From Verrucomicrobiota bacterium (GTDB taxonomy: Bacteria > Verrucomicrobiota > Verrucomicrobiia > Limisphaerales > UBA9464), in contig JAFLEF010000001.1 in the NCBI GenBank assembly GCA_017309115.1, positions 248,616-312,615 of the forward strand: a stretch of DNA of 64,000 bases, given 5' to 3'. The notes beneath the pieces were generated by a model, which was given only the letters and a program-made list of their open reading frames with translations, was not told the DNA's origin and made no database searches. Made by a program: the position numbers and the translations under genes. Shown piece by piece: positions 1 to 39,557 of this stretch (its first letter is position 1; the number at the start of each line of letters is the position of its first letter).

Positions 1-855
1 CGACTCCTGCCCGACGGAACCCCGGACCCTTCCTTCGTTCATCAGCCTGGAGCCGGGGGTGGTGTCGTGTTCGCGGGCGACGTCGAGGTGTTGCCCGATG
101 GTCGCATCCTGGTCGGGGGATTCTTTGAGGAATACCACGGGGTCAAGGTTCGGAACCTCATCCGGCTTCAACCGGACGGAACCCTGGACCCCACCTTCCC
201 CTTGCTGACCACGGGAGCGTCCCAATCGGTTTACAGCCTGGAGCCGCTTCCGGACGGTCGAGTGTACGTCGCGGGGTTCTTCGAGCAGATCGGGGGCCGG
301 CCTTTCAAACGCCTGGCGCGCCTTCTCGCTGACGGCACTCTGGATCTCTCCTTCAGAGCCCCGCAACCCGATGGCGAAGTATTTGAAATCAAGCCGCTGC
401 CCAACGGCCAACTGCTCGTCAGCGGTTCGTTCGGCACGATCGGCGGACTAGCGCGGTCGGGCCTCGCCCTGTTGAACGAGGACGGCTCCGTGGATACGAC
501 CTTCGATCTCGGCCGCGGCGCCAACAGCCACGTCTGGACCACGGCGGTCGGCGGCGACGGTTCGCTCTTCCTGGGCGGACCGTTCGATCGTTTCGACGAA
601 CAAGCGGCGCCCTTCCTCGCCCGACTCCGCGCCCCGGCCATTGCCGGCGCCTTGGGATCCGCCCGCTGGAGCAGCGACGGCCAGCTGGAAGCCCGGATTT
701 TCGGACTTCCGGGAGCCCGGTTCACGCTCGAATCCAGTACCGATCTCCTCCACTGGCACACCGCCGGCGAAGCGCGCGTGGACCGCCTGAATCAAGCCGT
801 ACCCGTCACGCTGCCGGCCACCGGAGCCTCCCAATTCCTCCGGCTCAAGCCGTGA
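1..855 (+). CDS. delta-60 repeat secreted protein, C-terminal part (5' end outside window)
   Basis: The reading frame is open from base 1, so the gene begins before the window; no start is assigned. The visible 284 residues are tandem delta-60-type repeats, each with an LPDGR-[IL]-LVGG-F core followed by a RLLxDGTLDxSF segment, expected to form a beta-propeller-like extracellular fold. The last ~65 residues form a separate module (GLPGARFTLESSTDLLHW ... FLRLKP) that is also found at the ends of other secreted proteins in this window. The upstream part may carry a metzincin and Calx-beta domains as in the paralogues at 11313 and 46708, but that cannot be seen here. Likely secreted or surface-bound; function unknown. 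Confidence 0.85.
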   Translation, partial: RLLPDGTPDPSFVHQPGAGGGVVFAGDVEVLPDGRILVGGFFEEYHGVKVRNLIRLQPDGTLDPTFPLLTTGASQSVYSLEPLPDGRVYVAGFFEQIGGRPFKRLARLLADGTLDLSFRAPQPDGEVFEIKPLPNGQLLVSGSFGTIGGLARSGLALLNEDGSVDTTFDLGRGANSHVWTTAVGGDGSLFLGGPFDRFDEQAAPFLARLRAPAIAGALGSARWSSDGQLEARIFGLPGARFTLESSTDLLHWHTAGEARVDRLNQAVPVTLPATGASQFLRLKP

Positions 856-7212: not shown

Positions 7213-7950
7213 ATGTCGGAGCTCCTGCCACCCCGCGAATTCACCACCACCCGATGGAGCGTCGTGCTGCGCGCCGGTGGGGCGAGCCCCGAACAGGCCC
7301 ACGCCGCGCTCGAACAGCTCTGTCGCGATTATTGGTATCCCCTCTACGCATTTGTCCGACGCAAGGGCCATTCGCCCGAGGATGCGGCAGACCTGACCCA
7401 GGACTTCTTCGCCAAGCTGCTCGCCCATGACGCCATTCAAAGTCTCAAACAGGAGGGCGGCCGATTTCGCTCGTTTCTGCTCACCGCCTTGGACCGCTTC
7501 CTCATCAATGACTGGCAAAAATCCAACCGTCTGAAACGACAGGGGGAACGGCAGCAAACGTCGCTGGAAGCGCTGATCACCGAGTCCGGTGAACCCGGCT
7601 ACCTCGCGGAACTCGTGCATGAAGAAACCCCGGAGGTGCTGTTCCAACGAGCCTGGGCGGAGACCATTCTGACCCGCGTTCTGGACCGACTGGCTCGCGA
7701 GTGCGAAGAGCGGGGCGAGACTCGTTTCCCGGCAGTGAAGCCATTTCTCAGCGCGGGAGAAGATCCGCCCGCGCTGGCCGCGACCGCCGCCGAATTGGGA
7801 CTTTCCTTGCCGGCCTTCAAATCGGTGCTCCACCGGTTTCGCCAGCGCTATCGGGAATTACTCATCGACGAAGTGCGCCAGACCGTCGGATCCCAGGCGG
7901 AAGTCGCCGAGGAACTGCGGAGTCTGCTCGGAGCGCTGCAACGACTGTGA
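7213..7950 (+). CDS. ECF-type RNA polymerase sigma factor paired with kinase gene
   Basis: This 245-residue sigma-70-family protein begins with the FTTTRWSVVL signature typical of kinase-associated ECF sigma factors in PVC bacteria. Region 2 covers about residues 30-100 (YWYPLYAFVRRKG, DLTQDFFAKLL, FRSFLLTALDRFL). A region 4-like helix-turn-helix lies near residues 190-225 (AATAAELGLSLPAFKSVLHRFRQRY). The tail, DEVRQTV...VAEELRSLLGAL, is shared with the sigma factors at 35539 and 51930. The kinase gene follows after 121 bp on the same strand. Activity is probably controlled by that kinase, by inference from the conserved pairing. No anti-sigma gene is adjacent. Confidence 0.9.
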   Translation: MSELLPPREFTTTRWSVVLRAGGASPEQAHAALEQLCRDYWYPLYAFVRRKGHSPEDAADLTQDFFAKLLAHDAIQSLKQEGGRFRSFLLTALDRFLINDWQKSNRLKRQGERQQTSLEALITESGEPGYLAELVHEETPEVLFQRAWAETILTRVLDRLARECEERGETRFPAVKPFLSAGEDPPALAATAAELGLSLPAFKSVLHRFRQRYRELLIDEVRQTVGSQAEVAEELRSLLGALQRL

Positions 7951-8071
7951 CCACCGCCGGAGATTTCTTGAATCCCGGATCCAGAAAGCCGGTGGGCAAG
8001 GAGTGGAATGATTCTGAGAACCGCCGAGGACGCTGATGAAACAGAAGCCACAACCGGGAACCGGATAGCCC

Positions 8072-11000
8072 ATGGCTGATGGCTCGCCACGCTGCGCCCG
8101 GTGCGGTTCCGCCCTGATCCGAGGAAGGGTCGGGGACGTCTGTTCCGTCTGCCTGCTGTTGGAGATCCTGCCGGCGGCTGAAGGATTGCCGGATCCCAAC
8201 CCACCCGCCGACTTGAGCCAGGATCCACCGTGGCTCCCATCCTTCGGTCCCTACGAACTGCTCGAGGAAATCGGCCGAGGCGGCATGGGTGTGATCTACA
8301 AAGCGCGTCAACCCGGACTGGACCGAGTCGTCGCGCTCAAGATGCTGCTGGCGGGTGAATTCGCTGACGCCAAGGCGCGGGAACGGCTCCTGCGCGAAGC
8401 CAAAATCGCCGCCCGCCTGAGTCACCCCGGCGTCGTCACCATTCACGAAGTGGGCGAACACCAGAGCCGACCCTACTTCGCCATGGAGTACGTGCCGGGC
8501 CGCAACCTCGCCCAGCATTGCCGCGATGGTCTGTTGCCCGTGGCCACCGCGGTCCGCTACGTCGAACACCTCGCCCGAGCCGTCCACTATGCGCATCAGC
8601 ACGGCGTCATCCACCGCGACCTCAAGCCGGCCAACGTCCTGATCAGTCCCGACGACGAGCCGAAGCTCACTGACTTCGGTCTGACCAAGTCGCTCGTGGA
8701 TCCGACCCAGACCGTTGAGTCGGCCGGTTCGCCCAACTTCATGGCGCCCGAGCAAGCCGACAGCACCTTGGGCACCACCGGTACACCCACCGACATCTAC
8801 GGCCTCGGGGCAATCCTCTACTACCTCCTCACCGGACGTCCGCCCGCGGTGGGCGAGACCCTGAGCGAAACCCTGCGCAATGTGGTCGCCGGTGAACCGG
8901 TGGCTCCACGGCAACTGCGCCCCGCCCTGCCGCGCGATCTGGAAACCATCACCCTCCGGTGTCTGGAGAAGGAACCCGCCCGTCGCTACGCCAGCGCCCA
9001 AGACGTCGCCGATGAACTCACCCGCTGGCAACGTCACGAACCCATCCTCGCCCGGCCCGCCACCGGCCCCGAACGTCTCGCCAAATGGGTCCGACGACGA
9101 CCCGCCATCGCCGCTCTCGCCGCCGCCTGCACGCTGGCCGTGATTCTGGGTTTCGCGGGCGTTACTTGGCAGTGGCAGCGGACAGAAGTGGAGCGGAAAC
9201 GGGCGGAGGCGAACGAACACACCGCTCTCCGAAGCGCCTACTTCGCCGAAATGACCTTCGCCGACACGGCCGCCGAAGCCGGCAACTGGGGTGCCGTACG
9301 CGAGTCGCTGGATCGCACCCGTCCGGCCCCGGGAGCGCCGGACCTTCGCGGATGGGAGTGGCGGTATCTCTGGCACATCAGCCGTCCTGGGGCACAAGGA
9401 CGTTTCGGGGAACGCACCAACCGGATCTGGTCCATCGCCCCCCTTCCCGACGGAAAGACGTTCGCGTTGGGCGAGGCGGGAGGGGGCTTTTCCCTCTGGG
9501 ACGCGACCTCGGGCCAACTTCAGTTTGAGCTGCCGGAAGCCATCAACCGAATCCGTCCTCCTTCGCTGGGCGGAGGAACGGCAGTCATCTGCCGAGTGGC
9601 CGCCGTGCCCAACACCTCCCTGCTCGCCTACACCGAAGGCGTCTCCGAGAACGAGGGTCGGGTCCACTTGTGGGACACCTCATCCCGCACAACGATTCGG
9701 TCGCTCTCCCTTCCCGGAATTCCCCGCGACCTCGCGGTCAGCGCCGATGGCCAGTGGCTAGCGTGCAGCCTGATGTTGCCCGAACACCGGGTCCTGATTT
9801 TCGAAATCGCCTCCGGACGATTGCAAACCGAGCTCGAGAGCGTCCCGTCCAACTACTCGCTCCCCAATGTGCTCGCCTTCTCTCCGGACTCCCACTGGCT
9901 GGCCCTGCCTGACACCCGGGATCGGTGCCTGCGAGTGGTGGAATGGCGCACCGGCCGCGACCGTTATCGGCTGCCCCTGGAGCAGGATTTCCCGCTCAGC
10001 GTGGGATTCTCACCCGATGGCCGATGGCTGGCCACTTCGGCGGGATTTGAGGAAGCCAGTCCCGGCATCCGGGTCTGGGACCTGGAAACCGGAACCCTCC
10101 GGGCCGAACTGACGGATGCGTCGCGTATGGTCACTTTGTTCGACCCCACCGGCCGCCGCCTCCTGACCGGCCAAAACGTGTGGCGCGTTCCAGAATTCAC
10201 CCTGGAACGGACCATCGCCGGTGCCCCCGGGGAAATGACCGCCGCCGCCCTGCTCCCGGATGGTGATACTTATCTGACGGAGTCGGGCGACGCTGTACTG
10301 CGCTGGAGTTTGCGGGCTCCCTCCCGAAGCCGCGGACGTCAAAGCCCCTTCACTTCCGCCCAGACAGGAACGTTTTTGCCCGGTGGCCAAGGGCTCCTCG
10401 TTTTGACAACCCAGGGAACCATCGAATGCGCACGGGCGCCCCAGTTTGAACGCGAGTTGATTCCGGTGGCGGCGTCTGATGCGACTCATATTGCCAGTCT
10501 CAATCCGCGCCAAGTACTGGCTGTGGCCCATACCAATGGCGCCGTTTCCCTGCATCGGATGGATACCTGGGAAGAAACCGCACGGTGGATGACCGATCCG
10601 GTTCGCTGCGCTCACCTCATCTGGGACGCACCCGCCGGACTTCTCGCCTATCGGACGGCGGATGACCGACTGAAGTTTTGGAACCCGGATCGCCAAACCT
10701 TGATCTGGGAGGTGCCGGTGCTGAAAGGCCGGGATTTGGTGGGCACGCCCGACGGCCAACTCCACCAGCTTCGGACCGATGGGCATCTGGTGTCCTACGA
10801 TCCGCGACGACGGGAGGTGTTCACCCAACGCCTAGACCACAAAGGGATGAGCCAGTTCGCCTTCTCTCCGGATGGCCGCTGGCTGGTCACCACGGCCTCC
10901 GAAGGGCCGGACAATCGGCGGCTCGTGGACACGAAAACGTGGAAAACCGTCAGCCACTTTGCGGCCTTTGGAAATGGGGTCCTCCACGGAGTCGCCTTCT

Positions 11001-11233
11001 GGCCGAAAGAACCGCGCCTCGCGTTTGCCGGTCCCATCGTGGTCGACCTGGAGTCCGGCCGGTCACTGCTCCACTTGAAGTCGGAGTTCACGTTTGCCCC
11101 CTTCGTCCTGCTCTCGGAGGACGGCAGCATCGTAGTGTCCATCCAGCCCCAACAGTCGAAGGCCAACCTCTGGTGGGCTCCCTCGTGGGGGCAGATCCGC
11201 CAGTCAGAAGCGGACGGTTCGGCGTGGCGTTGA
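8072..11233 (+). CDS. membrane Ser/Thr protein kinase with C-terminal WD40-like propeller
   Basis: Domains of this 1053-residue protein in order: an N-terminal zinc-ribbon-like CARCG...CSVC (residues 9-27); a Hanks-type kinase (about 60-320) with glycine loop IGRGGMG (67-73), VALK lysine 90, HRDLKPAN (catalytic Asp183) and DFG 201-203; a transmembrane helix near 343-367; then about 650 residues of degenerate WD40-like repeats (FSPDGRWLA motifs). All key catalytic residues are present, so an active kinase is expected, with the propeller on the other side of the membrane. It lies directly after its ECF sigma gene and 79 bp before the metzincin gene, so the three could be co-transcribed. Phosphorylation target unknown. 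Confidence 0.92.
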   Translation: MADGSPRCARCGSALIRGRVGDVCSVCLLLEILPAAEGLPDPNPPADLSQDPPWLPSFGPYELLEEIGRGGMGVIYKARQPGLDRVVALKMLLAGEFADAKARERLLREAKIAARLSHPGVVTIHEVGEHQSRPYFAMEYVPGRNLAQHCRDGLLPVATAVRYVEHLARAVHYAHQHGVIHRDLKPANVLISPDDEPKLTDFGLTKSLVDPTQTVESAGSPNFMAPEQADSTLGTTGTPTDIYGLGAILYYLLTGRPPAVGETLSETLRNVVAGEPVAPRQLRPALPRDLETITLRCLEKEPARRYASAQDVADELTRWQRHEPILARPATGPERLAKWVRRRPAIAALAAACTLAVILGFAGVTWQWQRTEVERKRAEANEHTALRSAYFAEMTFADTAAEAGNWGAVRESLDRTRPAPGAPDLRGWEWRYLWHISRPGAQGRFGERTNRIWSIAPLPDGKTFALGEAGGGFSLWDATSGQLQFELPEAINRIRPPSLGGGTAVICRVAAVPNTSLLAYTEGVSENEGRVHLWDTSSRTTIRSLSLPGIPRDLAVSADGQWLACSLMLPEHRVLIFEIASGRLQTELESVPSNYSLPNVLAFSPDSHWLALPDTRDRCLRVVEWRTGRDRYRLPLEQDFPLSVGFSPDGRWLATSAGFEEASPGIRVWDLETGTLRAELTDASRMVTLFDPTGRRLLTGQNVWRVPEFTLERTIAGAPGEMTAAALLPDGDTYLTESGDAVLRWSLRAPSRSRGRQSPFTSAQTGTFLPGGQGLLVLTTQGTIECARAPQFERELIPVAASDATHIASLNPRQVLAVAHTNGAVSLHRMDTWEETARWMTDPVRCAHLIWDAPAGLLAYRTADDRLKFWNPDRQTLIWEVPVLKGRDLVGTPDGQLHQLRTDGHLVSYDPRRREVFTQRLDHKGMSQFAFSPDGRWLVTTASEGPDNRRLVDTKTWKTVSHFAAFGNGVLHGVAFWPKEPRLAFAGPIVVDLESGRSLLHLKSEFTFAPFVLLSEDGSIVVSIQPQQSKANLWWAPSWGQIRQSEADGSAWR

Positions 11234-11312
11234 AGCGGCCGCCTGCCTCGCCGGTAACCGACTCAAACAATCTCACTTTTCCAGAATCCACTGCCCCGAG
11301 GCGCGGTGGGCA

Positions 11313-14300
11313 ATGAGTGAGATGAGTACTGTTCCGATTTCCCCTGCTCCGTCGCGTTCCCTTCGCCTCCGCTACGCCCAACTCCTGGGGGGCGGGCTCC
11401 TGCTGGGAATGTCCCTCGCCGCGACCGCCACCGAATCCAAGGACCTGCCGCATTTGTTGGTGTCCGAAGCCGGTCCCGTCCCAGCCACTCACGCCCGCGG
11501 ACTCGCCGCCCGACCTGCCCCCACTCGGCAGTGGCGCGTGACCCCGGAGGCCCTCGCACACCCGGAGCAGTGGTTCCAGTCCGACCGCCAGTTCCGACTG
11601 GATCTGCTGGAGAATCAGAACGTCACCGTGATCGTCGAGAGCCTCGAGACTACCGAGACCAGAGCGCGACAACTCCGGGGACGAGCGGCTTCCGATCCAT
11701 CCAGCTCCGTCACGCTGGTCCTTGAGGACTCCCAACTCAGCGGCTTCATCACCGTTCCCGGTTGGGGATCATATCATCTGCAACCGAGCGCCCCCGCCGG
11801 AACGGTCGAGGTGTCGGCCGTGCGCCATCCGGGTGGATTCTGCGCCACCGGATGCGTGGCGCCGTCCGCCCCTTCAGGCATTTCTCGGGCCCGGGCCTCC
11901 GTGGACCCAAGCGTCGGTCCCCAGCGGGCCACAGGCAGCGCGGCGGACCCCACCGTGGTTGAGGTAATGTTTCTCTACACGCCGCTGACCGTCACCGCGG
12001 AAGGAAGCGAGACTGCCCTTCAGCGCCGGATTCAAACCGCGGTCAATGAATCCAATCATCGGCTCACCAACAGTCTCATCCCGGTTCGCATCCAGCCGGT
12101 GTTCATTGGACTTTATGACACCTTCGAGACCGGGAGCATGCCGCGGGATTTTTTCCGTCTGAACAATGCCGTCGACGGTCTCGAACGGGTGCCTCAGCTC
12201 CGCAATGACTACCAGGCGGACCTCGTCTGCCTAGTCACCGAACTCGACACCGACAACTACCTCGCCGGGGCCTACGGGGTCGCTCCAACCCTGGGAGATC
12301 CCAAGTTCTCCACCATCGTGATCCGCCGCCACACGATGGCCCCCGGCTCCCGGGTGCTGGCCCATGAACTCGGCCACCTGCTGGGCTGTGAGCATGATCG
12401 GGAACACGCCACCCTGGCACCGGAAGTGTACCAGGCCCGCCCGCCCGATATCTTTGGTCACCGGACCGAGATAGAGGGGGTCACCTACATCGACCTGATG
12501 TCGTACGAACCCGGCATTTTCCTGCCGTACTTCTCCAATCCGAAACTCCAAATCGATGGCGTTCCCCTGGGAATTCCCATTGGGACAGACCGCCCTTCCG
12601 ATGCCGCCCGGGTGATCCAGGAAACCGCACCATACGTCGCGGCCTATCGGACCGCCAAAAGCCGGATCGAGTTTTCCAAGGCGCGATGGGTGGGGCGTCG
12701 GGAGGAATCGACCGTCACGGTGCACCTGCGCCGCAGCGGGGATCTCGACAGCAGCACGCGGGTGACCGTGGTGTTCGATGCCACCAGTCCGGCCCGCGCA
12801 GGCCTCGATTATCAGCGTCCCAGTTCCACCTTGGTCACCTTCGCGACCAACCAGGCGACTGCGGAACTGGTCATCCCGCTGCTGGCCCAATCACCCACCG
12901 TGGGCGAACGCGCGCTGCGTCTGGGACTCAGTTCGGTGGTGGGGGAACACGGCCTCGGGGAGATCTCCAAGGCCACCGTCTCGCTGTTTGATCCGTCAAC
13001 TCCATCCCTCTACGGAGAGGTCGAATTCCCCGAAGGAACACTGCGGGTGAAGGAGTCCGCCGGCCCGGCGCGGATCCGGATTCAGTTGCCAGAGTTGGGC
13101 GCTGAAGAGGCGCGAAACCTCCCGTTCCGCACCGTCGCGGGAACGGCCCTGGCGGGCACCGACTTCGACGCCGTCAGTGGCACCCTGACCTTCGCCCCCG
13201 GAGAAACGGTGGGCGAAGTCGTCGTACCCATCCGCCCCGACGCCGGGGCGCGAGCGGATCGAAGCCTCACCGTCGTCGTCGGCACCCGGACTAACCTCGT
13301 GACAATCCTGGATGAACAACGACTGGGTGCACTAAGTGCCGGGCCAGGCGTTCCCATTCAGGCGGACGGTGGTTTCAATAGCCTCCTGCGCGGCGATGGA
13401 CGGCTGCTGGTTTGGGGAAACTTCTCCCGGATCCAGGGCGTCTCGCGATCCGGCCTCGCGATGCTCCAGAAGGACGGAAGCGTGGATGACTCCTTTCGTC
13501 CGCCTGAACTTCTGCTGGGACACCGACGCCTGGCCGGAACCGGAACCACCGAGAGCCAGACCACGAACGCGGTTCTGTCGGTCGTTCGCCCACTGGCGGA
13601 CGGCCGACTGCTCGTGGCGGGAGAATTCTCGCGGGTCAATGGAGTCGACCAGCGCGGGGTGCTCCGCCTTCGGCCGGACGGAACGGTGGAAGAGTCCTTT
13701 GCCCGACTCCAATTCGACGGGGCTGTGAAGGAAGTCCTCGTCCAACGCGATGGACGGATCCTGGTCGGCGGCACGTTCACCCGGGTCAACGGGGAAGCGC
13801 GTCCGTATCTGATCCGGCTGCTCGCCAACGGAACTGTGGATCCCACCTGGAAACCGAAGGACGGACCGACCAGCGATTTCGTGGTGAACATCGCCACCCT
13901 CGCCGAACAGTCCGACGGCCGGATTCTCATGGGGGGCTTGTTCCGGAAGGTGGACGGAATGGCGTACACCAACCTCGCGCGATTGAACGTGGATGGCAGC
14001 GTTGACCCGACGTTTTCGTTGTCCCGCGGCGCCTCGGGTCCCGTGCTGTCGATTCAGGTACTCGCGGACGACCGCATTCTGGTAGCCGGATTCTTCGACA
14101 CCATCGGCACTCGAAACAGTCCGCGCATCGCCCGCCTGAGGCCGGATGGGAGCGTGGACACCACCTTTCAATCCCCCTCACCCGACGCGGAAATCCGCGA
14201 AGCGCATCCGCTGCCCGACGGACGCATTCTGATCGCCGGACGCTTCACGAAGCTGGGCACGTTCAACCGGCGGTTCGTCGCTTTGCTGAACGCGAACGGG

Positions 14301-14696
14301 TCCGTAGATCCGACGTTTGACGCCGGCAATGGTCCTTCGGCCGCCCCGGGAATCAGCGCCGCCTTTGCGAGCCGCTGCCTGTCACCGGGCCCGGATGGTT
14401 TGCTTCGGTTGACCGGCGAATTCAGCGCCTTCAACGGCGTGGAGTCGCCGGGAAGTGCGTCGTTACGACTGGGACCGGTGACGCCCCGACTCGGTCGAGC
14501 CTCAGCGACGGAAACCGGGGAGATTTGGATTCCGGTCTTTGGATTGCCGGGCGCGCGATATGCGGTGGAATCGAGTGACAATCTGGATGACTGGCACCCC
14601 GCGGGAGAAGTTCTCCTCGAAGGGTACGATCGGGAAACGCACTTGTCCGTCCCCACCGACTCAAAACCGGTCCAATTCCTCCGGCTCCAGCCGTGA
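11313..14696 (+). CDS. secreted metzincin metallopeptidase with Calx-beta and delta-60 repeats
   Basis: This 1127-residue protein has an N-terminal signal/anchor (hydrophobic GGGLLLGMSLAATATE), a ~190-residue pro-region, and a reprolysin-like catalytic domain with the zinc motif HELGHLLGCEHD (residues 351-362) and a Met-turn, DLMSYEP. Two Calx-beta-like domains follow (about 450-560 and 570-670, with TAGLDY/TDFD-type turns). Then come seven or so delta-60 repeats (LADGRLLVAGEF, RDGRILVGGTF) and the C-terminal GLPGARYAVESSDNLDDW...FLRLQP module. The zinc ligands are complete, so a secreted active protease is likely. It is paralogous to the proteins at 32543 and 46708. It follows the sigma and kinase genes on the same strand. 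Confidence 0.9.
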   Translation: MSEMSTVPISPAPSRSLRLRYAQLLGGGLLLGMSLAATATESKDLPHLLVSEAGPVPATHARGLAARPAPTRQWRVTPEALAHPEQWFQSDRQFRLDLLENQNVTVIVESLETTETRARQLRGRAASDPSSSVTLVLEDSQLSGFITVPGWGSYHLQPSAPAGTVEVSAVRHPGGFCATGCVAPSAPSGISRARASVDPSVGPQRATGSAADPTVVEVMFLYTPLTVTAEGSETALQRRIQTAVNESNHRLTNSLIPVRIQPVFIGLYDTFETGSMPRDFFRLNNAVDGLERVPQLRNDYQADLVCLVTELDTDNYLAGAYGVAPTLGDPKFSTIVIRRHTMAPGSRVLAHELGHLLGCEHDREHATLAPEVYQARPPDIFGHRTEIEGVTYIDLMSYEPGIFLPYFSNPKLQIDGVPLGIPIGTDRPSDAARVIQETAPYVAAYRTAKSRIEFSKARWVGRREESTVTVHLRRSGDLDSSTRVTVVFDATSPARAGLDYQRPSSTLVTFATNQATAELVIPLLAQSPTVGERALRLGLSSVVGEHGLGEISKATVSLFDPSTPSLYGEVEFPEGTLRVKESAGPARIRIQLPELGAEEARNLPFRTVAGTALAGTDFDAVSGTLTFAPGETVGEVVVPIRPDAGARADRSLTVVVGTRTNLVTILDEQRLGALSAGPGVPIQADGGFNSLLRGDGRLLVWGNFSRIQGVSRSGLAMLQKDGSVDDSFRPPELLLGHRRLAGTGTTESQTTNAVLSVVRPLADGRLLVAGEFSRVNGVDQRGVLRLRPDGTVEESFARLQFDGAVKEVLVQRDGRILVGGTFTRVNGEARPYLIRLLANGTVDPTWKPKDGPTSDFVVNIATLAEQSDGRILMGGLFRKVDGMAYTNLARLNVDGSVDPTFSLSRGASGPVLSIQVLADDRILVAGFFDTIGTRNSPRIARLRPDGSVDTTFQSPSPDAEIREAHPLPDGRILIAGRFTKLGTFNRRFVALLNANGSVDPTFDAGNGPSAAPGISAAFASRCLSPGPDGLLRLTGEFSAFNGVESPGSASLRLGPVTPRLGRASATETGEIWIPVFGLPGARYAVESSDNLDDWHPAGEVLLEGYDRETHLSVPTDSKPVQFLRLQP

Positions 14697-15042: not shown

Positions 15043-15600
15043 ATGTCCGACGTCACCCAATTGCTCCACGCCTTGGACGCCGGTGATCCGAAGGCCGCCA
15101 ACCAATTGCTCCCGCTTGTCTATGAGGAACTACGCCAGGTGGCGGCCATCCGCATGGCGCAGGAGAAGCCCGGGCAGACGCTGCAGGCCACCGCGCTCGT
15201 GCATGAAGCCTGGCTGCGACTGGTCGGGGCGGAGGAGCAGCGTTGGGACAGTCGACGCCACTTCTTCGCCGCCGCCGCGGAATCCATGCGCCGGATCCTG
15301 GTCGAGAAGGCCCGGCGACGGCTCCGGGTCCGGCATGGGGGCGGACTGGAACGGGTGGATCTTGACGAAGTGGAGATTCCGGGCGGGGTCCGCGAGGAAC
15401 AGCTCGTGGCGGTAGACGAGGCCCTGGCGGAACTGGAACGTGAGGACCCGAAGAAGGCCGAATTGGTCAAGCTGCGTTACTTTGTGGGACTGACCAACCG
15501 CGAAACCGCCGAGGCGTTGGGTCTTTCAGAGGCCACCGTGGAGCGCCACTGGTCCTTCGCCAAGGCCTGGCTGTTCAGCCAGATCCGGTCGTCACGATGA
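15043..15600 (+). CDS. ECF-type sigma factor, TIGR02999-like subfamily
   Basis: A 185-residue protein from the ATG at 15043 (MSDVTQLLHALDAGDPKAAN). The upstream open frame is non-coding repeat sequence. The start LLPLVYEELRQVAAIRMAQE and TLQATALVHEAWLRL, then RRHFFAAAAESMRRILVEKARRR (region 2) and FVGLTNRETAEALGLSEATVERHW (region 4 helix-turn-helix), match the sigma subfamily that accompanies kinases of the type found next. It differs clearly from the FATTRWS-type sigma factors elsewhere in the window. The kinase gene starts 86 bp downstream. Confidence 0.92.
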   Translation: MSDVTQLLHALDAGDPKAANQLLPLVYEELRQVAAIRMAQEKPGQTLQATALVHEAWLRLVGAEEQRWDSRRHFFAAAAESMRRILVEKARRRLRVRHGGGLERVDLDEVEIPGGVREEQLVAVDEALAELEREDPKKAELVKLRYFVGLTNRETAEALGLSEATVERHWSFAKAWLFSQIRSSR

Positions 15601-15686: not shown

Positions 15687-18600
15687 ATGAACACCCCAAA
15701 CCTGGCCATCGAGACCATCTTCAACGCCGCCAAAGCGCTCCCGCCCGAGTCTCGGGCGGAATACCTGGACCTGGCCTGCCGGGAAGACGCCGCCCTGCGA
15801 CATGAGCTCGAGCGACTCCTGTCAGCGGCGGAGGGAGCGGACCGCTTCTTCGACGCCAACCCCGTCGGCCTGACCCAGCTCGGAAACACCGTGATGGACA
15901 CCACCGTGCGGGAAGGTCCGGGCACCCGGATCGGCCGGTACAAGCTGCTCCAGCAAATCGGCGAGGGCGGCATGGGCGTGGTCTACATGGCCGAGCAGGA
16001 AGAACCCGTGCGGAGGCGCGTGGCGCTCAAGATCATCAAGCTGGGCATGGACTCCAAACAGGTGGTCGCCCGCTTCGAGGCGGAACGCCAGGCGCTCGCG
16101 ATGATGGACCATCCCAACATCGCCCGGGTGCTCGACGGCGGCACCACGGAGAGCGGCCGGCCTTACTTCGTCATGGAACTCGTCCAGGGCGTGTCGATCA
16201 TCGAGTTCTGCGATAAGGCCAGGCTTCCGGCCCAGGAACGGCTCGATCTGTTTCTTCAGGTTTGTGAGGCCGTCCAGAGCGCGCATCAGAAGGGAATCAT
16301 CCACCGCGACCTCAAACCCTCGAACATCCTGGTCACGCAGCACCAGGGGAAGCCCATGCCCAAGGTGATTGATTTCGGCATTGCGAAGGCGACGAACCAG
16401 AAGCTCACCGAGAAGACCCTGTTCACCCAGCACGCCACCATGATTGGTACGCCGGCCTATATGAGTCCGGAACAGGCCGAGATGAGCAGCATGGACGTGG
16501 ACACCCGCAGCGACATCTATTCGCTCGGTGTGCTGCTGTACGAACTGCTCACCGGCAGCACCCCGTTTCCCGAGAAACGTCTGCGGAGCCTGGGCTACGG
16601 CGAGATGCAACGCGTCATTGCCGAGGAGGAGCCGGAGCGCCCCTCGGCCCGCCTGAGCACGCTGGACCACGAGCAGAAGACAGTGGTGGCAAAGAATCGC
16701 GGCGAGGACCTGGCCGCCCTCAACACCCGGCTCCAGGGCGACCTCGACTGGATCGTGATGAAGTGTCTGGAGAAGGACCGCACGCGGCGCTACGAGACGG
16801 CGAACGGCCTGGCAACGGACCTCAAGCGGCACCTCGACAACGAGCCCGTCGTAGCCCGTCCACCCAGCCTCGCCTACCGCCTGAACAGAACCTGGCGCCG
16901 CAACCGTCTAGCCTGCAGCGCGGGTCTAGCCGTAGTACTCGCTCTCGCCTTGGGAATCGTCTTGAGCTCCATTCAAGCGAGGAAGGCCAATCAAGCCCGA
17001 TTGGCGGCCCTTCAGGCGGGAGAGGAGGAGCGAAAACAACGCACGGCAGCCGACGAAGCCAGGAAAGCCGAGGCCACCCTCCGCGAACGCGCCGAGGCCT
17101 CGGAGCGGACCGCCCGCCGCTGGTCCTATGCGGCGGCCATGAACCTCGCCCAAAAAGCCTTGGCCAATGATGATCTGGCTCGGGCACGCGACCTACTCGA
17201 CGCCCAACGCCCTACGACCGGGAAGGAGGATCTGCGCGGATGGGAATGGCGCTTCCTTCGCGGACAGTGTCGGACCGACGAAGAACAAACGCTGCTGACC
17301 GGCCTCCCTCCCCTCAGCGCCCTTGCTCTTTCACCAGATGGCCGCTTCCTCGCCTACGCCAAAATGGACGCTTCGGTCACGCTGATGGATCTTTCGACCC
17401 AACAGATTGTGCTTCAAACCAAGGGGAGTAGGAACCTGGGTTCGCTCTTCCGGTGGCGTATGGACTTCTCGCCCGCCGAACCCCTCTTCGCCGTTCACGA
17501 AGCTCTTCCTGATGGAACGTTTCGGATTCTGCTGTGGAACACACAGCTCCGAACGGTTCATAGAGCGATCCCGTCATCCAAGGAATTCGGCGCCCTCCGC
17601 TTCTCCCCGGATGGACGCCACCTCATGATCTGCGATCTGTCCCAAGGCTTGCACCTGCGGGAAATCGCTCACGGCGACAAGGTCATTTCGTGGCCAGACG
17701 TCACCATCGCCCACGGATTCCTCTTCAGCCCCGACGGGAAGGAGGCCTTGGCTGTCTGTACCCGCACGGATCTTTCCGTCCTCAGCCTTGACCCCGCGGC
17801 TCCCCGCCAACGGATTCTCCACTCCGCCGAAGAGTTCGTGGGGACCGTCGCCGTGACCTCCGATGGTTCGACGATCGCCTCCTCCGATATCGTCCTGGAA
17901 ACCGACATCATCCTCCGGGATTGGAAGACCGGCGAAGCCCGGGGTCGGCTCGAGGGCCACCGCGCCTTTATCCATCACCTCGCCTTCTCTCCCGACAATC
18001 AACTTCTGGCATCGGCCGGAGCGGACCAGACGGTGCGGCTCTGGGACTGGCGGGCGGGCCGTTGCCTCGCCACGCTCCGCGGCCACACCGGAGAGGTCTG
18101 GGCTGTGGCTTTCACTCCGGACGGTCGGCATCTTCTCTCCGCTTCCAAGGATGGATCCATCCGTCGCTGGCCGGTCCATAGTAAGTCGGAAGGGCTGCCC
18201 TTTAGGCTGTTTGCCGGTGGGCTTAACTATGTCTGTGGCTTTACCGCCGACAGCCGGTGGGTCATCACAAGAAACTCAACCAATGGGTCCTTCCAACGCT
18301 GGGGCGTGGATTCAGCCGCTTTACCCCAACCACTCTTCAATGCAGGGACCAACACGACGATTACCGAACTGTCCCCGGATCGGACCCGGCTTCTCGTTGG
18401 CCACCTTGACGGTTGGGTCCGAGAATGGGATTGGGCTCGCGGTCAGGTACTTCACCAACACCAGTTCGGCACCGAACCTATCTCCGGTGTCGGCTACCTC
18501 TCGGGCGGCAAAACCTGGGCTGTTTCCCGAACAAACTCCCTCTGCGTCTGGAATCACCAACTGGAGCGGATTGAAGGTGAGTTCCCACTCGGGCTGCCCG

Positions 18601-19127
18601 AAACGTACAATCATCAGGGATGGGCTACGACGCCCGACGGCAATCTGGTCGCGGCGAGGATCGGCACGCAGTTGCTGTTGTGGGACGCCGCCCGGGGTCA
18701 AATCGTCGGATCGTTCGAAACCGGTCAACCCCTGAATACCGTCACTTTCAGTCCCGATGGCCGGTGGGTCGCCGCCACGCAATTCGATCCCTTGGGCGTC
18801 GCCCATGTCTGGTCCGTTCCCGATCTGAAATCCGCGGGTACCTTTCGTCATCACCTCGAGTGCCACGCGGCTGGCTTCTCCCACGACAACCGCCGACTCA
18901 TTACCGGCAGCCTGGGCAGCGAGGCGGTGCGGCTTTGGGATCCCGCCACGGGCATGGATCTGATCACCCTTGCGGCTCCCATTTCCGAAGTAAACCGCGT
19001 CGAGTTTTCTCCCGACGGCAAACACCTCGTGGCTTCCAGTCAGCTCAGCAACTCCGCGATCTGGACGGCTCCGACCTGGGCCGAATTGGAGGCAATGGAG
19101 GGCGGTTTGAAGCAGAAGTCCCCTTAG
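15687..19127 (+). CDS. membrane Ser/Thr protein kinase with WD40 repeats
   Basis: A 1146-residue protein. Instead of a zinc ribbon it has an alpha-helical N-terminus (residues 1-60, [18 protein letters not shown]) typical of kinases paired with TIGR02999-type sigma factors. Kinase features: IGEGGMG (91-97), VALK lysine 115, HRDLKPSN (Asp208) and DFG 229-231, with the [12 protein letters not shown] activation segment. A transmembrane helix lies near 407-430, then a short coiled coil ([25 protein letters not shown] region), then many WD40 repeats with clear [21 protein letters not shown] units. All catalytic residues are present. It is paired with the sigma gene just upstream; target unknown. 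Confidence 0.93.
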
Positions 19128-27674: not shown

Positions 27675-28175
27675 ATGACAACTCTGGAATGGTTGGAGGC
27701 CGCCAGCTTCGTGGTCACAGTCATCGGTTTGCCCCTGGCGATTCTCATCTTCGCCTGGGAACAACGCCACCAACGACAAAACGATCAGGAGGAAATCTAC
27801 CAACGCCTCTCGGACGAATACACCAGCTTCCTCAAGCTGGCGCTCGACAACGCCGACCTGCACCTGCTCCGCAAGCAAGGCAGCGGGCCGGAGTTGACCG
27901 GCGAACAGCAGGAACGGAAGTACGCGCTGTTCACCATCCTCGTTTCGATCTTCGAGCGGGCCTATATCCTGGTCTACGAGGACAAGATGGATCGGCAAAC
28001 CCGGCGCCTATGGCTTTCCTGGGAGGACTACATGCGGGAGTGGTGCCAGCGACACGATTTCCGGGAAGTGCTGCCGGAATTGCTGAAGGGTGAGGACGAA
28101 GAATTCGCCTCTCACATCAGCAAAATCGCGGAGGCGGAAGCAGCCAAGGCGAAGTCCTCCATGTCGCAACACTAG
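27675..28175 (+). CDS. single-pass membrane protein, conserved hypothetical
   Basis: A 166-residue protein with one N-terminal helix (residues 8-27, AASFVVTVIGLPLAILIFAW) and a cytoplasmic helical domain. It contains ERAYILVYEDKMDRQTRRLW and SWEDYMREWCQRHDFREVLP, a conserved signature of small membrane-anchored hypothetical proteins in many bacteria. No enzyme motif is seen. Its TAG stop overlaps the TAG stop of the convergent sigma gene in the palindrome CTAG at 28172-28175, so the two genes have no space for a terminator between them. Confidence 0.8.
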   Translation: MTTLEWLEAASFVVTVIGLPLAILIFAWEQRHQRQNDQEEIYQRLSDEYTSFLKLALDNADLHLLRKQGSGPELTGEQQERKYALFTILVSIFERAYILVYEDKMDRQTRRLWLSWEDYMREWCQRHDFREVLPELLKGEDEEFASHISKIAEAEAAKAKSSMSQH

Positions 28176-32542: not shown

Positions 32543-35362
32543 ATGTACTCCCTGAAACATCTCCTGGCCTCCCTGGCCACCGTTACCCTCCACGCCATCG
32601 GCGCCGGCGACAGCGAATGGGCTCCGTGGGCGCCTCAACCCACAACGGCCCCTCCTGCGAGCCCGCACCGCATCGCCAGAGCCCGCGCTGCGGAGACATC
32701 GCCGGTGGAGGTGGATATTCTGGTGCTCTACACCACGGCCGCCCGGGATGGCGCCGGAGGCGTGGACGCGTTGAAGTCGGCGATCCTGGACGGCTTCGAT
32801 GTCGCCAATCAGATCCACGCCAACAGCCGCACCTTTATCAGGCTGAACCCCGTGTCCATCCTGCAGTCACCCCTGGTGGAGACGGGGTCCGCCTTCACGG
32901 ACCTGCCGAACCTGGCCGGCAGCTCGGGTCCATCCCTCCGCAATGAGTACCGCGCGGACCTGGTTCTATTGGTGTTCGAATCCGACAAGTCGGAGACCTC
33001 CGCCGTGGCGGGTCCGGGGCGTCCCGGGACCACGGGAAACAGCGCCACCGCCTACTTCAGCCTGCAGCGGAACTATCCGTGGGGCCTGGGCGCCGGGATC
33101 GCCGACCGGTCCGGATTTCTCATGGGCTGTGCGGGTGACCCCGGTATCTACCGTGGATCCTTCGCCCATTCTCAGTCGCACCGGTTCGAGGCGGATGGGA
33201 TCGAGTTCGCAACCATCATGGGAACTGCCGGCATGAACATTCCCTACTTCTCCAATCCTGAGGTCCTGTATCGCGGACAACCCACCGGAGTGGAGGGCGT
33301 CGCGGACAACGCGGCCACCCTTCGGGAACTCGGGCCCAGGGTCGCAGACTACCAGCGGTGCACCAACCGCATTCAGTTTGAACTCGCCACGGCCACGGTC
33401 AGCGAGGCGGAAGGGATGGTCCGTCTCCGGATTGTGCGAACCGGCCCCTCGGACACCGCGTCCCAGTTCCGCGTCTACCCCGTCAACGGCACCGCCCGGT
33501 CCGGCACGGACTTCGAATTCGCGGTGCAGGTCCTGCGAATCGAACCCGGCGAAAGTGAACGAATCGTTGAAGTGCCCCTTCGCAACGACACCGGGGCCCA
33601 GGGGACGCGCTCCTTCCAACTGCGTCTGGGCAGTCCCTCCGTGGGCACGGGCGTGGGCATGAACGGCTTGGTGGAAATCCGGCTCGAGGACGATGACCTG
33701 CCCTTTGCGATCGCGAGGACCGAGGGCTTTGTCACGGAGGGCGGTCAAGGCACCACGGTCCGCATCACCCGTACCCGGGACATCGAGACGGAGGCTTCCG
33801 TAACGCTCGACTTCGTCCCGAGCGGAACCCAGGGCCCGCTGTTGGCGACGGCGACCCCGGAGGCGATCCCGGCGCCGCTTCCCCTGACGGTTCGGTTCCA
33901 ACCGGGCCAGACCGAAGCCTCCGTCCGGCTCCGCGTGACCGAGGACGCGCAGGCCGTGCCCGACGTCGCAGTCCGGATCGGGCTCCAGGGTCCCTGGCCC
34001 GAGGGCACGCCCGGAACCGCCCTGACACTCTGGCTTCGGGACAACGACGGGCGCATTGGTGTCGTGGGCAGCACTCCCGCCCAGCGGACAGCGGGGGCCA
34101 TCGAGGGCCCGGTGCTGGCGCTCCCGGATGGCAGCTTCCTCGCCGGCCGTCGCGCGATCCGGGGAGGTGCCGTCCGCCTCGAACGTTATCGGACCGACGG
34201 CACCACGGATCCGCAATGGCCGGTGCTTCTGTTCAAAGAGTCGGCGGACGCGGACGCCGGCCTCCAGTTTGGACGCCTAAACCAGATGGTCCGACAGCCG
34301 GACGGAAAGATCCTGGTCGCCGGATTTTTCGCCGCGGTGAACGATACCCCGCGCAGCGGCTTGGTCCGCCTGCTCCCCGGGGGTGGCATTGACCCGGAGT
34401 TTCAGACGGGGCGGGGATTCAGCGGTCCGGTGCGGGGCGTATGCGTGCAGCCGGATGGCGGGATCGTGGCCGTGGGCTCCTTTCGCGAATTCAACGGCAT
34501 GACGCGGAGCGTGGCGGCGCGCCTGACGCCGGACGGCTCCCTCGACGATTCCTTTAACCCCAGTTTCACCGGCATCTTCACGGGCTTTGAGCTCACCGCG
34601 GTGGCCATGCAGGGCGAACGGATCCTGGTGAGCGGGCAATTCACCCGAGTGGGTGAGCAGAACAGCTCGGGAGTAGCCCGACTGCATCAGGACGGAACGG
34701 CCGACGCGACCTTCCGTTCCACCTTTGACGGAGTCGCGCTGGGCTTCCGGGTGCTGCCCGGGGGTGACCTGTACGCGTTCGGCCCCTTCCTCACTCCGGC
34801 ACGCTGGGCTGTTCCGCTGCACTCCAACGGCACCTTCGACTCCCGTCGCCGGTTCCGCGGGCTGACGGGTCCAGTGCAGGACATCCTCCCCGTTGCTGGA
34901 GGGGAAGCCTATCTCTGCGGACGCTTCCCGGGGCTGACCGCGACGCCGCCGCTGTTCGCCCGGTTTGCCTCGGATGGCACCCCAGTGGCAGATTTCGGTC
35001 CGCTGCTCGATCCGGTGGGCTCCGTAACCGCCATTTTGGCGGGTCCGTCGGGCGGGCTGACCCTGGTGGGCAGCATGACCGAGGCAGGAGGTGTCGAGGC
35101 GGCCAGCATGATCCGGCTCGAGTCGGGAGCCTGGTCCACCGAACTGAGGCAACCCCAACACGATGCCGGCGGCCTGAGGATGGAGGCCCAGACGATCCCC
35201 GGCCTCATCCACCGACTGGAGCGATCCAGCGACTGGAACTCCTGGGAGTTGGTGGAGTCCCGGGATGCCACCGCCCACGCGACCTGGTTTCACGACCCGG
35301 AGCCGGCGCCAGCATCCTTCTACCGGCTGAGCATCGGGACGGCACACTCCACCGCTCCGTGA
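32543..35362 (+). CDS. metzincin-like protein with lost zinc site, Calx-beta and delta-60 repeats
   Basis: A 939-residue exported protein from the ATG at 32543 (MYSLKHLLASLATVTLHAIGA). The catalytic-domain region aligns with the metzincins at 11313 and 46708 (VDILVLYTTAARDGAGG...LRNEYRADLVLLV, then NIPYFSNPEVLYRGQPTGV), but where they have HELGHLLGC-[DE]-HD this one reads ADRSGFLMGCAGD near residue 190, and the Met-turn DLMSYEP is TIMGTAG. All three zinc His are missing. The ~190-residue pro-region is also absent. Calx-beta domains (about 285-500) and five or so delta-60 repeats follow, then a HRLERSSDWNSW...FYRL C-terminal module. Probably a non-catalytic binding paralogue. Confidence 0.85.
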   Translation: MYSLKHLLASLATVTLHAIGAGDSEWAPWAPQPTTAPPASPHRIARARAAETSPVEVDILVLYTTAARDGAGGVDALKSAILDGFDVANQIHANSRTFIRLNPVSILQSPLVETGSAFTDLPNLAGSSGPSLRNEYRADLVLLVFESDKSETSAVAGPGRPGTTGNSATAYFSLQRNYPWGLGAGIADRSGFLMGCAGDPGIYRGSFAHSQSHRFEADGIEFATIMGTAGMNIPYFSNPEVLYRGQPTGVEGVADNAATLRELGPRVADYQRCTNRIQFELATATVSEAEGMVRLRIVRTGPSDTASQFRVYPVNGTARSGTDFEFAVQVLRIEPGESERIVEVPLRNDTGAQGTRSFQLRLGSPSVGTGVGMNGLVEIRLEDDDLPFAIARTEGFVTEGGQGTTVRITRTRDIETEASVTLDFVPSGTQGPLLATATPEAIPAPLPLTVRFQPGQTEASVRLRVTEDAQAVPDVAVRIGLQGPWPEGTPGTALTLWLRDNDGRIGVVGSTPAQRTAGAIEGPVLALPDGSFLAGRRAIRGGAVRLERYRTDGTTDPQWPVLLFKESADADAGLQFGRLNQMVRQPDGKILVAGFFAAVNDTPRSGLVRLLPGGGIDPEFQTGRGFSGPVRGVCVQPDGGIVAVGSFREFNGMTRSVAARLTPDGSLDDSFNPSFTGIFTGFELTAVAMQGERILVSGQFTRVGEQNSSGVARLHQDGTADATFRSTFDGVALGFRVLPGGDLYAFGPFLTPARWAVPLHSNGTFDSRRRFRGLTGPVQDILPVAGGEAYLCGRFPGLTATPPLFARFASDGTPVADFGPLLDPVGSVTAILAGPSGGLTLVGSMTEAGGVEAASMIRLESGAWSTELRQPQHDAGGLRMEAQTIPGLIHRLERSSDWNSWELVESRDATAHATWFHDPEPAPASFYRLSIGTAHSTAP

Positions 35363-35538
35363 AGCCGCCAATGAATCCGATGAACGCGCTCGCCGTGTCG
35401 AGGGACGGCACGACCGCCGCACCGTCCGCGTCGAGGACCGGTCCCGGGGATCCCAGCAGGCTGAACCGCCTGCAGTTCCCCGGGGCCTGGCTTCGGGGGG
35501 TTGCGCCTTCAATCCGCGGGGCGCTAGCTTCCGAGGCC

Positions 35539-36282
35539 ATGTCTCCCGAATCCCTGCCCGACCCAGGCCACCGAGAGATATTCGCGACCACCCGGTGGAG
35601 TTTGGTGCTGAATGCGGGAACCGACGACCCCACCCACGGCGATGCCGCGCTGGAGCAGCTTTGCCGGTCCTACTGGACACCAATTTATGCCTACACCTGC
35701 CGCACGGGCGTGCCTCCGGAGTCCGCCCGGGACCTGACCCAGAAATTCTTCGCCACGCTGCTGGAGAAGAGGTGGCTGCAACGGGCGGACCGGGATCGGG
35801 GCCGGTTCCGGAACTTCCTGCTCACCTATCTCAAGCGGTTCCTGGCAGACGAACGTCAGCGCGAGTCGGCCCAGAAGCGGGGCAGCGGGCGCGAGGTCCT
35901 GTCGCTGGAGGACCTAGCTGGAGATGAGGGCGCGGTGTTTGGACCGTCGGCGGCGCGCACACCGGAGTGTGAGTACGACCGGCAATGGGCCCTGACCACA
36001 CTAAAGAACGCACTGCAACAACTGCAGGCCGAGGCCATCCAACACGGGCAGGCCACCCTGTTTGAAGCCCTTCAGGGCCGCCTAACTGAAGGAGGCTCCG
36101 CGGAGTCATTGGCCGCGATCGGACAGCGCTTCGGACTGGGCGAGAGCGCCGTCAAGATGCGGCTCACCCGATGGCGGACACGCTATCAGGAGCTGATCCG
36201 TTCCGAGGTCGCTCAGACGGTTCCCCAACGCGCCGACATCAATGAGGAACTGCGGCACCTCATGGACGCCCTCGTGCAATGA
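35539..36282 (+). CDS. ECF-type sigma factor paired with kinase gene
   Basis: A 247-residue protein from the ATG at 35539. An in-frame ATG 60 codons earlier adds a low-complexity leader that other family members lack. [39 protein letters not shown] and [17 protein letters not shown] mark region 2, and [25 protein letters not shown] is the region 4 helix-turn-helix. The tail [20 protein letters not shown] matches the sigma factor at 51930. Its TGA overlaps the kinase ATG in ATGA (36279-36282), so the two are translationally coupled. The metzincin-like gene ends 176 bp upstream. Confidence 0.92.
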
Positions 36283-39200: not shown

Positions 39201-39557
39201 CTGGTCCTAGGCACGGATGAGGCGGTGAGTGTCTGGGACCTGGCCGGCGACCAACGGCTCCTGCTCCTGGCCGGGCACACCCGGTACGTGCCTGCGGTCG
39301 GATTCTCGCCGGACGGCAAGCGGCTGCTCTCCGGCAGCGACGACGGCACCATCCGCCTGTGGCACAGCGTCACCGGACGGGAATTGATGACCCTCCGCGC
39401 ACACCCACGGGGGGTCGTGAGGGCTGCGTTCTCACCGGATGGCACCCGCCTGGTCACCGCCAGTGCCAGCGAGGACGCCACCGTATCGATTTGGAGGAGC
39501 GCTTCCCGGGACCAGGTCACCACTGAGAGGAATCTCGAGACCGGCGATCGGGACTAG
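36279..39557 (+). CDS. membrane Ser/Thr protein kinase with WD40 repeats
   Basis: A 1092-residue protein with an N-terminal zinc-ribbon motif CGSCGRPLP...GGNCPWC (8-27), then a kinase domain with LGEGGFG (73-79), VALK lysine 97, HRDIKPSN (Asp190) and DFG 211-213, plus [13 protein letters not shown] transmembrane helix lies near 388-412, followed by about 650 residues of WD40 repeats ([20 protein letters not shown]-type). Catalytic residues are complete. Its ATG overlaps the sigma stop, so synthesis of the two proteins is coupled. The target is unknown; the paired sigma factor is an obvious candidate by inference. Confidence 0.93.

Follow-up and report, generated by a model that had tools for sequence, protein, structure and literature searches.

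Paralogous sigma factor-kinase modules with exchangeable secreted partners and candidate clade-specific promoters in a Verrucomicrobiota lineage

Introduction

What does an extracytoplasmic function (ECF) sigma factor control when its gene lies beside those of a membrane kinase and a large secreted protein? The question is raised by a 64,000-nucleotide stretch of a Verrucomicrobiota genome (order Limisphaerales; GenBank assembly GCA_017309115.1, contig JAFLEF010000001.1, forward-strand positions 248,616 to 312,615; hereafter the window), in which three gene groups, modules A, B, and C, each combine an ECF sigma factor, a Ser/Thr kinase with a WD40 propeller, and a secreted protein of the metzincin type. 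ECF-kinase pairs are abundant in these bacteria, and to our knowledge little is known of what they control. The recurring module is real: it places a signalling pair of a known type in a new context and yields a prediction, at the level of sequence, of the targets of that pair. We think it probable that these are paralogous signalling modules with kinase-switched sigma factors, two clade-specific promoters, and exchangeable secreted cargo.

A preliminary description of this DNA noted that sigma-kinase pairs occur in bacteria of the Planctomycetes-Verrucomicrobia-Chlamydiae (PVC) group; the open-access literature agrees, and also reports WD40 kinases there. In EcfP-PknT of Vibrio parahaemolyticus and EcfK-PknS of Xanthomonas citri (group ECF43), the kinase is reported to phosphorylate and activate its linked sigma factor; where region 2.2 would have the DxxD motif, ECF43 members have uncharged residues and a Thr that is phosphorylated (PMC8999054, PMC13147305). 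Acidic residues are retained at this site in the other kinase-linked groups (PMC8999054), and the WD40 part of such membrane kinases is predicted to be periplasmic (PMC11032199). Our search of the open-access literature by title and start of abstract, with subscription papers outside its scope, returned no paper describing a sigma-kinase-secreted protein module.

Results

Three modules in the window

In modules A (7213-14696) and B (51930-43358), the genes for the sigma factor, the kinase with its propeller, and a secreted metzincin with Calx-beta and delta-60 repeats follow one another in this order, each module on a single strand, as the preliminary description had stated. Its third group, our module C (32543-39557), also stood up: here the secreted protein comes ahead of the sigma-kinase pair, and the ATGA overlap at 36279 is genuine. 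The nine genes all lie exactly or very nearly where they had been placed (Table 1), and the two genes of each pair are adjacent. The metzincin-type proteins are large, at 939 to 1127 amino acids, for which "giant" was a generous word.

Metzincins A and B matched Reprolysin, Calx-beta, and DUF5122 (delta-60) in Pfam, with Reprolysin_4 in metzincin B barely above its cut-off (22.2 versus 22 bits), and both carry HExxHxxGxxH and a Met-turn. The module C protein, earlier called metzincin-like, groups with the metzincins by our profile A1 (E 8.8e-39) and has lost the zinc motif: Pfam gave Calx-beta and DUF5122 with no Reprolysin match, and no HExxH was found. Delta-60/DUF5122 repeats (TIGR02608 / PF17164) scored above cut-off in all three secreted proteins. 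Sigma70_r2 was above cut-off in sigma factors A and B and Sigma70_ECF in B and C, and sigma region 4 was matched, below cut-off, in B alone. The kinase-WD40 proteins have one hydrophobic stretch, identified by eye, between kinase and propeller.

Two sigma clades and their secreted partners

We call sigma factors of the kind found in these modules sigA type, and use L, G, C, and f numbers for loci, genomes, contigs, and families (C1 is the contig of the window). A tree of 61 such sigma factors, from which rows of 150 bits or less were dropped, contains two clades of eight members each, with supports of 100/100 and 100/99. Both were recovered with eight and nine members (Shimodaira-Hasegawa-like approximate likelihood ratio test, SH-aLRT, 100 each) in a quick tree of 69, from which rows of 255 bits or less were dropped. 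In the 61-sigma tree the two clades hold every sigma factor labelled as linked, L084 and L141 excepted. We then searched 321 genomes from the order at E <= 1e-85, limited to the eight top candidates in each; of the new top matches that could be placed, L148 alone joined the clades. Four of the 42 matches were left out (G122, G314, G075, and G109:C146), and no sigma gene was called in the sigma-centred stretches L144, L146, and L158. The resulting 17 members come from six genomes: eight from the window genome, five from G038, and one each from G103, G048, G070, and G006.

Each of the 17 clade members shares its module and strand with a large secreted protein, which in 11 cases is a metzincin. 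We applied one linkage rule, a metzincin, Calx-beta, or DUF5122 gene on the same strand within four genes of the sigma factor, to 89 sigA-type sigma factors, rows of 60 bits or less having been dropped. The rule is satisfied by 14 of 17 clade members versus 3 of 72 others (L037, L084, and L141); on either strand the counts are 14 of 17 versus 5 of 72, with L030 and L111 added. The three remaining members (L109, L110, and L148) have LRR (leucine-rich repeat) or laminin-G proteins by a Pfam scan that covered the neighbours of clade members rather than of outside sigma factors, so only the profile figures are comparable. Further partners are FG-GAP/Calx proteins (L029 and L112), a Calx-esterase (L028; also L141, outside the clades), and delta-60-like proteins (the gene at C1:226203, and L108). 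Given these other partners, we rejected the metzincin as an invariable component. The L105 sigma factor is the sister of that of module C (100/99), and the gene order of module C is kept there.

A Ser/Thr kinase gene on the same strand within four genes accompanies 83 of the 89 sigA-type sigma factors. We considered whether every sigA-type pair controls a large secreted gene. Such genes lie downstream of 6 of 12 pairs at 290 bits or more; at 200-290 bits, 7 of 37 pairs have one versus 48 of 724 control genes (p = 0.013), so that beyond close relatives the excess is just weak. The control genes were drawn from the same stretches of DNA, no closer than three genes to a sigma factor, kinase, or metzincin, and thus do not sample genomes at random; signal peptides were scored by a crude hydrophobicity measure.

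The clades also differ in sequence. Across six aligned sigma factors, region 2.2 reads DAAD in the four of clade 1 and AARD in the two of clade 2, with D60-L-T-Q invariant. The helix of region 4.2, the part of a sigma factor that reads the -35 element, is PAFKSLLHRFRQRYRELL in one clade versus SAVKMRLSRWRARYRELL in the other.

As a separate observation, family f56 (L151, L152, L154, and L160) has tandem arrays of two to four sigA-type sigma-kinase pairs.

Two bipartite elements at gene starts

Upstream of the secreted-protein genes we found two bipartite elements, which at the starts of secreted-protein, kinase, and pseudopilin genes are new. Type I, in clade-1 modules, has the form GCGAATCC-N15-(C/G)GTGTGC followed by GGGTG and ATG, with variation (short form GCGAATCC-N15-GGTGTG). 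Type II, in clade-2 modules, has the form GTGACC-N16-GAAGCAGG followed by ATG, also with variation (short form GTGACC-N16-GAAG). Both end at the start codons of many genes of the three classes. The spacing in other type I copies points to ATG 11322 as the start of metzincin A.

We built position weight matrices (PWMs) from nine type I and eight type II sites and scanned 2.49 Mb on both strands with the type I matrix. Every one of its 13 best matches, nine of which had served for training, falls at the start of a secreted-protein or pseudopilin gene in these gene groups. Held-out type I sites were the pseudopilin of L110, the LRR/laminin-G gene of L026, L108, the gene at C1:226203, and the pseudopilin at C1:222181, and, more weakly (14-16 bits), three kinases; elsewhere, three matches reached at least 15 bits (L063 at 21.5, L038, and L140). 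The 13 type II matches of at least 24 bits (eight training, five held out) all fall in these gene groups as well. The held-out ones are at the L110 pseudopilin, the L110 kinase, the second secreted gene of L025, kinase B, and L148, the last at a position where no gene start was called. Lower type II matches comprise L105 (22.7 bits, facing the next gene), three f56 loci, L088, and chance-like sites.

Some minor observations concern these elements. Pseudopilin-like genes, recognized by eye from their FTLIELLVV start, occur in modules at C1:222181, L110:17610, L028:9123, and L029:12067; those of C1 and L110 carry the type I element, and that of L110 carries type II as well. On the same contig as the L110 module, about 23 kb away (G038:C135:27379, L209), a good type II element precedes a secreted-looking open frame of 131 residues. 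Family f56 has a third form, GCAACC-N16-TAAGTAA, before a kinase or small open frames (L150, L152, and L154). By eye, a candidate CTACCC element precedes four clade-2 sigma factors; the upstream regions of clade-1 sigma factors from other genomes showed no common element.

Element type follows sigma clade

When each module was scored with matrices built without it, 16 of 17 modules, their segment bounds set by us, scored higher for the type of their own sigma clade (Mann-Whitney p = 3e-4). The 99th percentile of random segments was 13.9 bits for type I and 16.3 for type II. Metzincin gene starts, scored leave-one-out, exceeded 11 bits in 11 of 13 linked cases versus 1 of 55 others; the one, L024, has its upstream neighbour beyond the contig end. 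Metzincin B is the sister of the L026 metzincin (SH-aLRT 100) and groups with metzincins of clade-1 modules. It has a type II element and lies in a clade-2 module, although its sister has a clade-1 sigma factor and a type I element. Clade-specific elements at secreted-gene starts are what one would predict if the adjacent sigma factor controls these genes. The earlier proposal that the pair controls the adjacent surface protein gains from this and from the recurrence of the module, on one strand, in other genera; it needs amending in that the partner is not always a metzincin.

Linkage in the surveyed stretches is seen with one metzincin architecture

We surveyed the order for metzincins with profile A1, which matched in 82 of 321 genomes at E <= 1e-10. 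The sample comprises 60 stretches around A1 matches and four loci from a contig scan with A1, which yielded just these four, 64 outside stretches in all. Many metzincin-centred stretches end early at contig edges. Gene calling dropped the metzincin gene in 7 of the 64, so that these are absent from the motif, alignment, and start-scoring sets; the linkage count, made on open frames, includes all. Several called gene starts were misplaced, and starts were checked by eye for elements.

The expectation that metzincins as a class sit beside sigma-kinase pairs failed: none of the 48 stretches, many of them truncated, whose metzincin lacks the full architecture (metzincin, Calx-beta, and DUF5122) holds a sigA-type sigma factor, and of the 60 stretches only L084 and L105 do. 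We therefore rejected a general link. An absence of excess beside such pairs, which the preliminary description had named as telling against its idea, thus holds for metzincins at large and not for those of full architecture. Of the latter, 6 of 16 outside loci are linked, five by a sigma factor and the sixth by a piece of kinase at the edge of its contig; among loci with sufficient flank, the figure is 6 of 13. For comparison, 22 metzincin-bearing genomes, picked for having metzincins, contain 287 sigA-type sigma factors at E <= 1e-20 in about 139 Mb, from which we estimate that a gene of this length would have one within 5 kb in roughly 3% of cases.

Among the linked loci, L025-L027 came from the A1 contig scan. 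The order sigma-kinase-metzincin is found in L026 (with one extra gene between), L027, and L084, and L105 has metzincin-sigma-kinase, as in module C. L025 has a sigma factor with no kinase between it and the metzincin. L088 was added because its contig ends just upstream of the metzincin, within a kinase-type WD40 protein of which the 633 C-terminal residues remain; over 637 columns these share 44.7% identity with the M3 kinase. L027 repeats the arrangement of module A, including a PF07638 sigma factor behind the metzincin. The flank is too short to judge linkage in L024, L053, and L060. Seven full-architecture loci are unlinked (L052, L058, L061, L089, L090, L091, and L095, the last with just 0.5 kb downstream). 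The fragment L029_7495 was counted as unlinked, and in the sigma-centred stretch L111 a plain metzincin lies four genes from the sigma factor, on the other strand.

In family f6 (L053 and L058), two genes that each combine metzincin and DUF5122 parts, and whose metzincins form another clade, are preceded by a PAS hybrid histidine kinase rather than by a sigma-kinase pair; L060, a third relative, has its flank missing.

Metzincins that have lost the zinc site

HExxHxxGxxH is present in 62 of 68 metzincin-type proteins and absent from those of module C, L105, and L084, the fragment L029_7495, and the unlinked L081 and L047. The module C protein is 46% identical over 900 columns to that of L105, which belongs to another family, and in the alignment both, like L084, also lack the N-terminal part of about 200 residues found in A and B. 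Many motif-bearing metzincins have a Cys ahead of the catalytic domain, which we take to suggest a cysteine switch. That catalysis and the presumed prodomain have gone together, and that this form persists in two families, suggests a non-catalytic role for the module C and L105 pseudo-metzincins.

A larger array around the window

The modules of the window belong to a larger array: six metzincin-type secreted proteins and six sigA-type sigma factors lie between C1:220969 and C1:300620, about 80 kb. Modules on this contig are partly tandem duplicates and hence not independent of one another, for which reason we rejected recurrence inside the window as proof of the module; the copies in other genomes are independent. 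The window genome, of 7.53 Mb, has 17 strong sigA-type sigma factors and nine A1 metzincin matches, one a fragment (six on this contig, two on C23, and one on C41), eight of which sit in arrays containing a sigA-type sigma factor, a larger share than chance would give. The main C23 metzincin is about 14 kb from its sigma factor, with the kinase and other secreted genes in between; the distant C41 metzincin has neither a sigA-type sigma factor nor such a kinase within the 20 kb viewed.

Discussion

In the mechanism that we favour, the membrane Ser/Thr kinase, its propeller outside the cytoplasm, would sense something at the cell surface and switch on its partner ECF-type sigma factor, probably via phosphorylation as in EcfP-PknT and EcfK-PknS. 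The sigma factor would then transcribe the secreted-protein genes of its module, and often the kinase gene too, from the bipartite element beside their start codons, each clade presumably binding its own type. The gene behind the promoter appears exchangeable: a metzincin, pseudo-metzincin, LRR/laminin-G, FG-GAP/Calx, Calx-esterase, delta-60, or pseudopilin gene. Gene content and order, the clades, the elements, and the match of element type to sigma clade are observed; kinase control and the signal are inferred. Our main reserve concerns promoter function, which we propose from sequence.

The side-by-side sigma and kinase genes resemble ECF43 EcfP-PknT and EcfK-PknS. Unlike ECF43, which has neither acidic residue, clade 1 keeps DxxD and clade 2 its second Asp, so that these sigma factors lack the ECF43 hallmark and the mechanism must differ in detail. 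Also unlike those pairs, the present ones have a WD40 propeller on the kinase, linked secreted repeat proteins, and clade-specific elements. Also comparable are the planctomycete groups ECF59, ECF61, ECF62, and ECF217, which come from PVC-type bacteria, have linked kinases, and are predicted to be kinase-regulated (PMC8999054); the present sigma factors may belong to one of them. We found no mention of such a secreted-protein partner in that account. Membrane kinases of Planctomycetota (Uabimicrobium and Gemmataceae) have the same layout in the accessible accounts, with the kinase domain first and a C-terminal WD40 array predicted outside; they are presented there as expanded families, whereas the present ones stand in sigma-cargo modules. 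The metzincins recall adamalysin-type enzymes and the biofilm metzincin Mep72 in HExxHxxGxxH and Met-turn, with weak matches to Reprolysin, Mep72, and ADAMTS-type structures. Unlike Mep72, they score far below its curated cut-off, carry Calx-beta and delta-60 repeats, and in module C have no zinc site.

Several points weigh against this mechanism. The sites behind the matrices were chosen by eye, and linked sigma factors supplied the A2 profile by which the sigma factors were ranked. Loose patterns hit widely, with 11 of 88 type I and 7 of 22 type II matches inside modules by eye, and the reversed-pattern control of these searches is weak. The elements are so near the start codon that the predicted transcript would be almost leaderless. 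The copy at kinase A is weak, and the ATG at the fixed distance opens a frame of just 23 residues. L110, the exception to the clade match, holds both element types, as does L025, and four modules fall below the 99th percentile (M2 at 9.9, C at 11.2, L028 at 12.2, and L029 at 16.1 bits). The 11-bit line was drawn afterwards, with two linked metzincins at just 11.2 and an unlinked one at 10.4. Two linked metzincins have no element in the scored stretch: L029_15, the last of its array, and L084, whose sigma factor is outside the clades. Beside the M2 sigma factor, upstream of the window, the kinase (C1:236639-239658) is on the opposite strand and split into two open frames. Finally, neither element occurs at any sigma gene among all 33 rows for type I and the best 50 of 66 for type II; there is thus no sign of autoregulation, which fits control by activation rather than by amount.

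Could the upstream likeness be mere baggage, copied along as modules spread by block duplication and transfer? The six sigma factors and six secreted proteins within about 80 kb are partly tandem copies, and the four clade-1 sigma factors of the window contig are alike upstream over much of the length, as shared descent alone would predict. By information per column, however, the two type I blocks are conserved and the spacer less so, the spacing is constant, the same element precedes unrelated genes, and in module B element type tracks sigma clade and not cargo lineage; we regard descent without regulatory meaning as unlikely. That the neighbours are incidental to ordinary ECF-kinase pairs strikes us as highly improbable. 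SigA-type sigma factors are indeed numerous, as the 287 above attest, 67 of 72 non-clade ones lack a metzincin, Calx-beta, or DUF5122 neighbour at up to four genes' distance, and the majority of metzincins stand apart from any sigma factor. Against this stand the large secreted proteins of all 17 clade members, the shared elements, and a same-strand order kept in other genera.

Two further explanations accept the elements and give them another function. They might be recombination or homology sites at which secreted-protein cassettes are swapped beside sigma-kinase pairs, for cargo varies among close relatives, and the L024 metzincin and L110 pseudopilin, unrelated in coding sequence, share a near-identical composite type II plus type I leader. 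Since the elements also precede kinases, keep a fixed distance to the start codon, and come in two types that track sigma clade, such a role in place of promoter function is quite unlikely; it could hold in addition. Very unlikely, too, is action in translation, through ribosome or mRNA binding. It would suit elements that abut the start codon and end in GGGTG or a GG-rich run, but not a bipartite form with promoter-like spacing and sigma-clade-specific sequence, and no Rfam family reached its gathering score in the five sources searched.

If the elements are indeed promoters of kinase-switched sigma factors, they constitute a concrete sequence-level prediction of targets for two sigma clades, and with a different promoter for each clade neighbouring copies could act as separate channels. 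This suggests a route by which a lineage could build many parallel surface-signalling channels through duplication. A bolder version, which we hold as doubtful though possible, sees insulated, duplicable channels with a promoter code per clade, into which recombination plugs new secreted proteins that the propeller may even read. The cargo would then include active proteases, proteases turned non-catalytic, lectin-like and LRR proteins, and pseudopilins, and the dead protease of module C may be a propeller ligand.

Other features of the window

Table 1. Positions of the module genes, elements, and neighbouring features in the window (position 1 is its first letter).
Feature	Coordinates	Strand	Basis
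Module A sigma factor, sigA type, clade 1	7213..7950	+	Pfam Sigma70_r2; clade support 100/100
Type I element, weak copy (15.2 bits), begins 104 bp before kinase A start	7968..8005	+	PWM scan
Module A kinase with WD40 propeller	8072..11233	+	Pfam Pkinase and propeller models
Type I element at metzincin A start; leave-one-out 25.9 bits	11282..11319	+	upstream sequences, PWM
Module A secreted metzincin (HExxHxxGxxH) with Calx-beta and DUF5122 repeats	11313..14696	+	Pfam, motif
Type II element at start of module C secreted protein (ATG 32543); leave-one-out 11.2 bits	32504..32532	+	PWM
Module C pseudo-metzincin with Calx-beta and DUF5122, without HExxH	32543..35362	+	Pfam, motif check, alignment
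Module C sigma factor, clade 2; alternative start ATG 35539	35359..36282	+	Pfam; tree
Module C kinase with WD40; start overlaps sigma stop (ATGA)	36279..39557	+	Pfam
Module B secreted metzincin with Calx-beta and DUF5122	43358..46708	-	Pfam, motif
Type II element at metzincin B start; leave-one-out 20.2 bits	46717..46745	-	PWM
Module B kinase with WD40	47064..51077	-	Pfam
Type II element upstream of kinase B; held-out match, 24.0 bits	51137..51165	-	PWM
Module B sigma factor, clade 2	51175..51930	-	Pfam; two trees
Second ECF sigma factor of a different type (PF07638), directly 3' of metzincin A	15043..15600	+	Pfam
Kinase/WD40 partner of the PF07638 sigma factor	15687..19127	+	Pfam
C-terminal part of secreted metzincin of the next module upstream (C1:246105-249470)	1..855	+	contig scan

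Two other proteins of the window are recorded here. Between two modules, 1085-6361 on the plus strand encodes a protein of 1758 residues with a Big_7 domain; its other Pfam matches are weak, and NCBIfam gave nothing. At 28172-29686 on the minus strand, a protein of 504 residues, whose long C-terminal part has no Pfam match, carries sigma-type regions in its first 172 residues.

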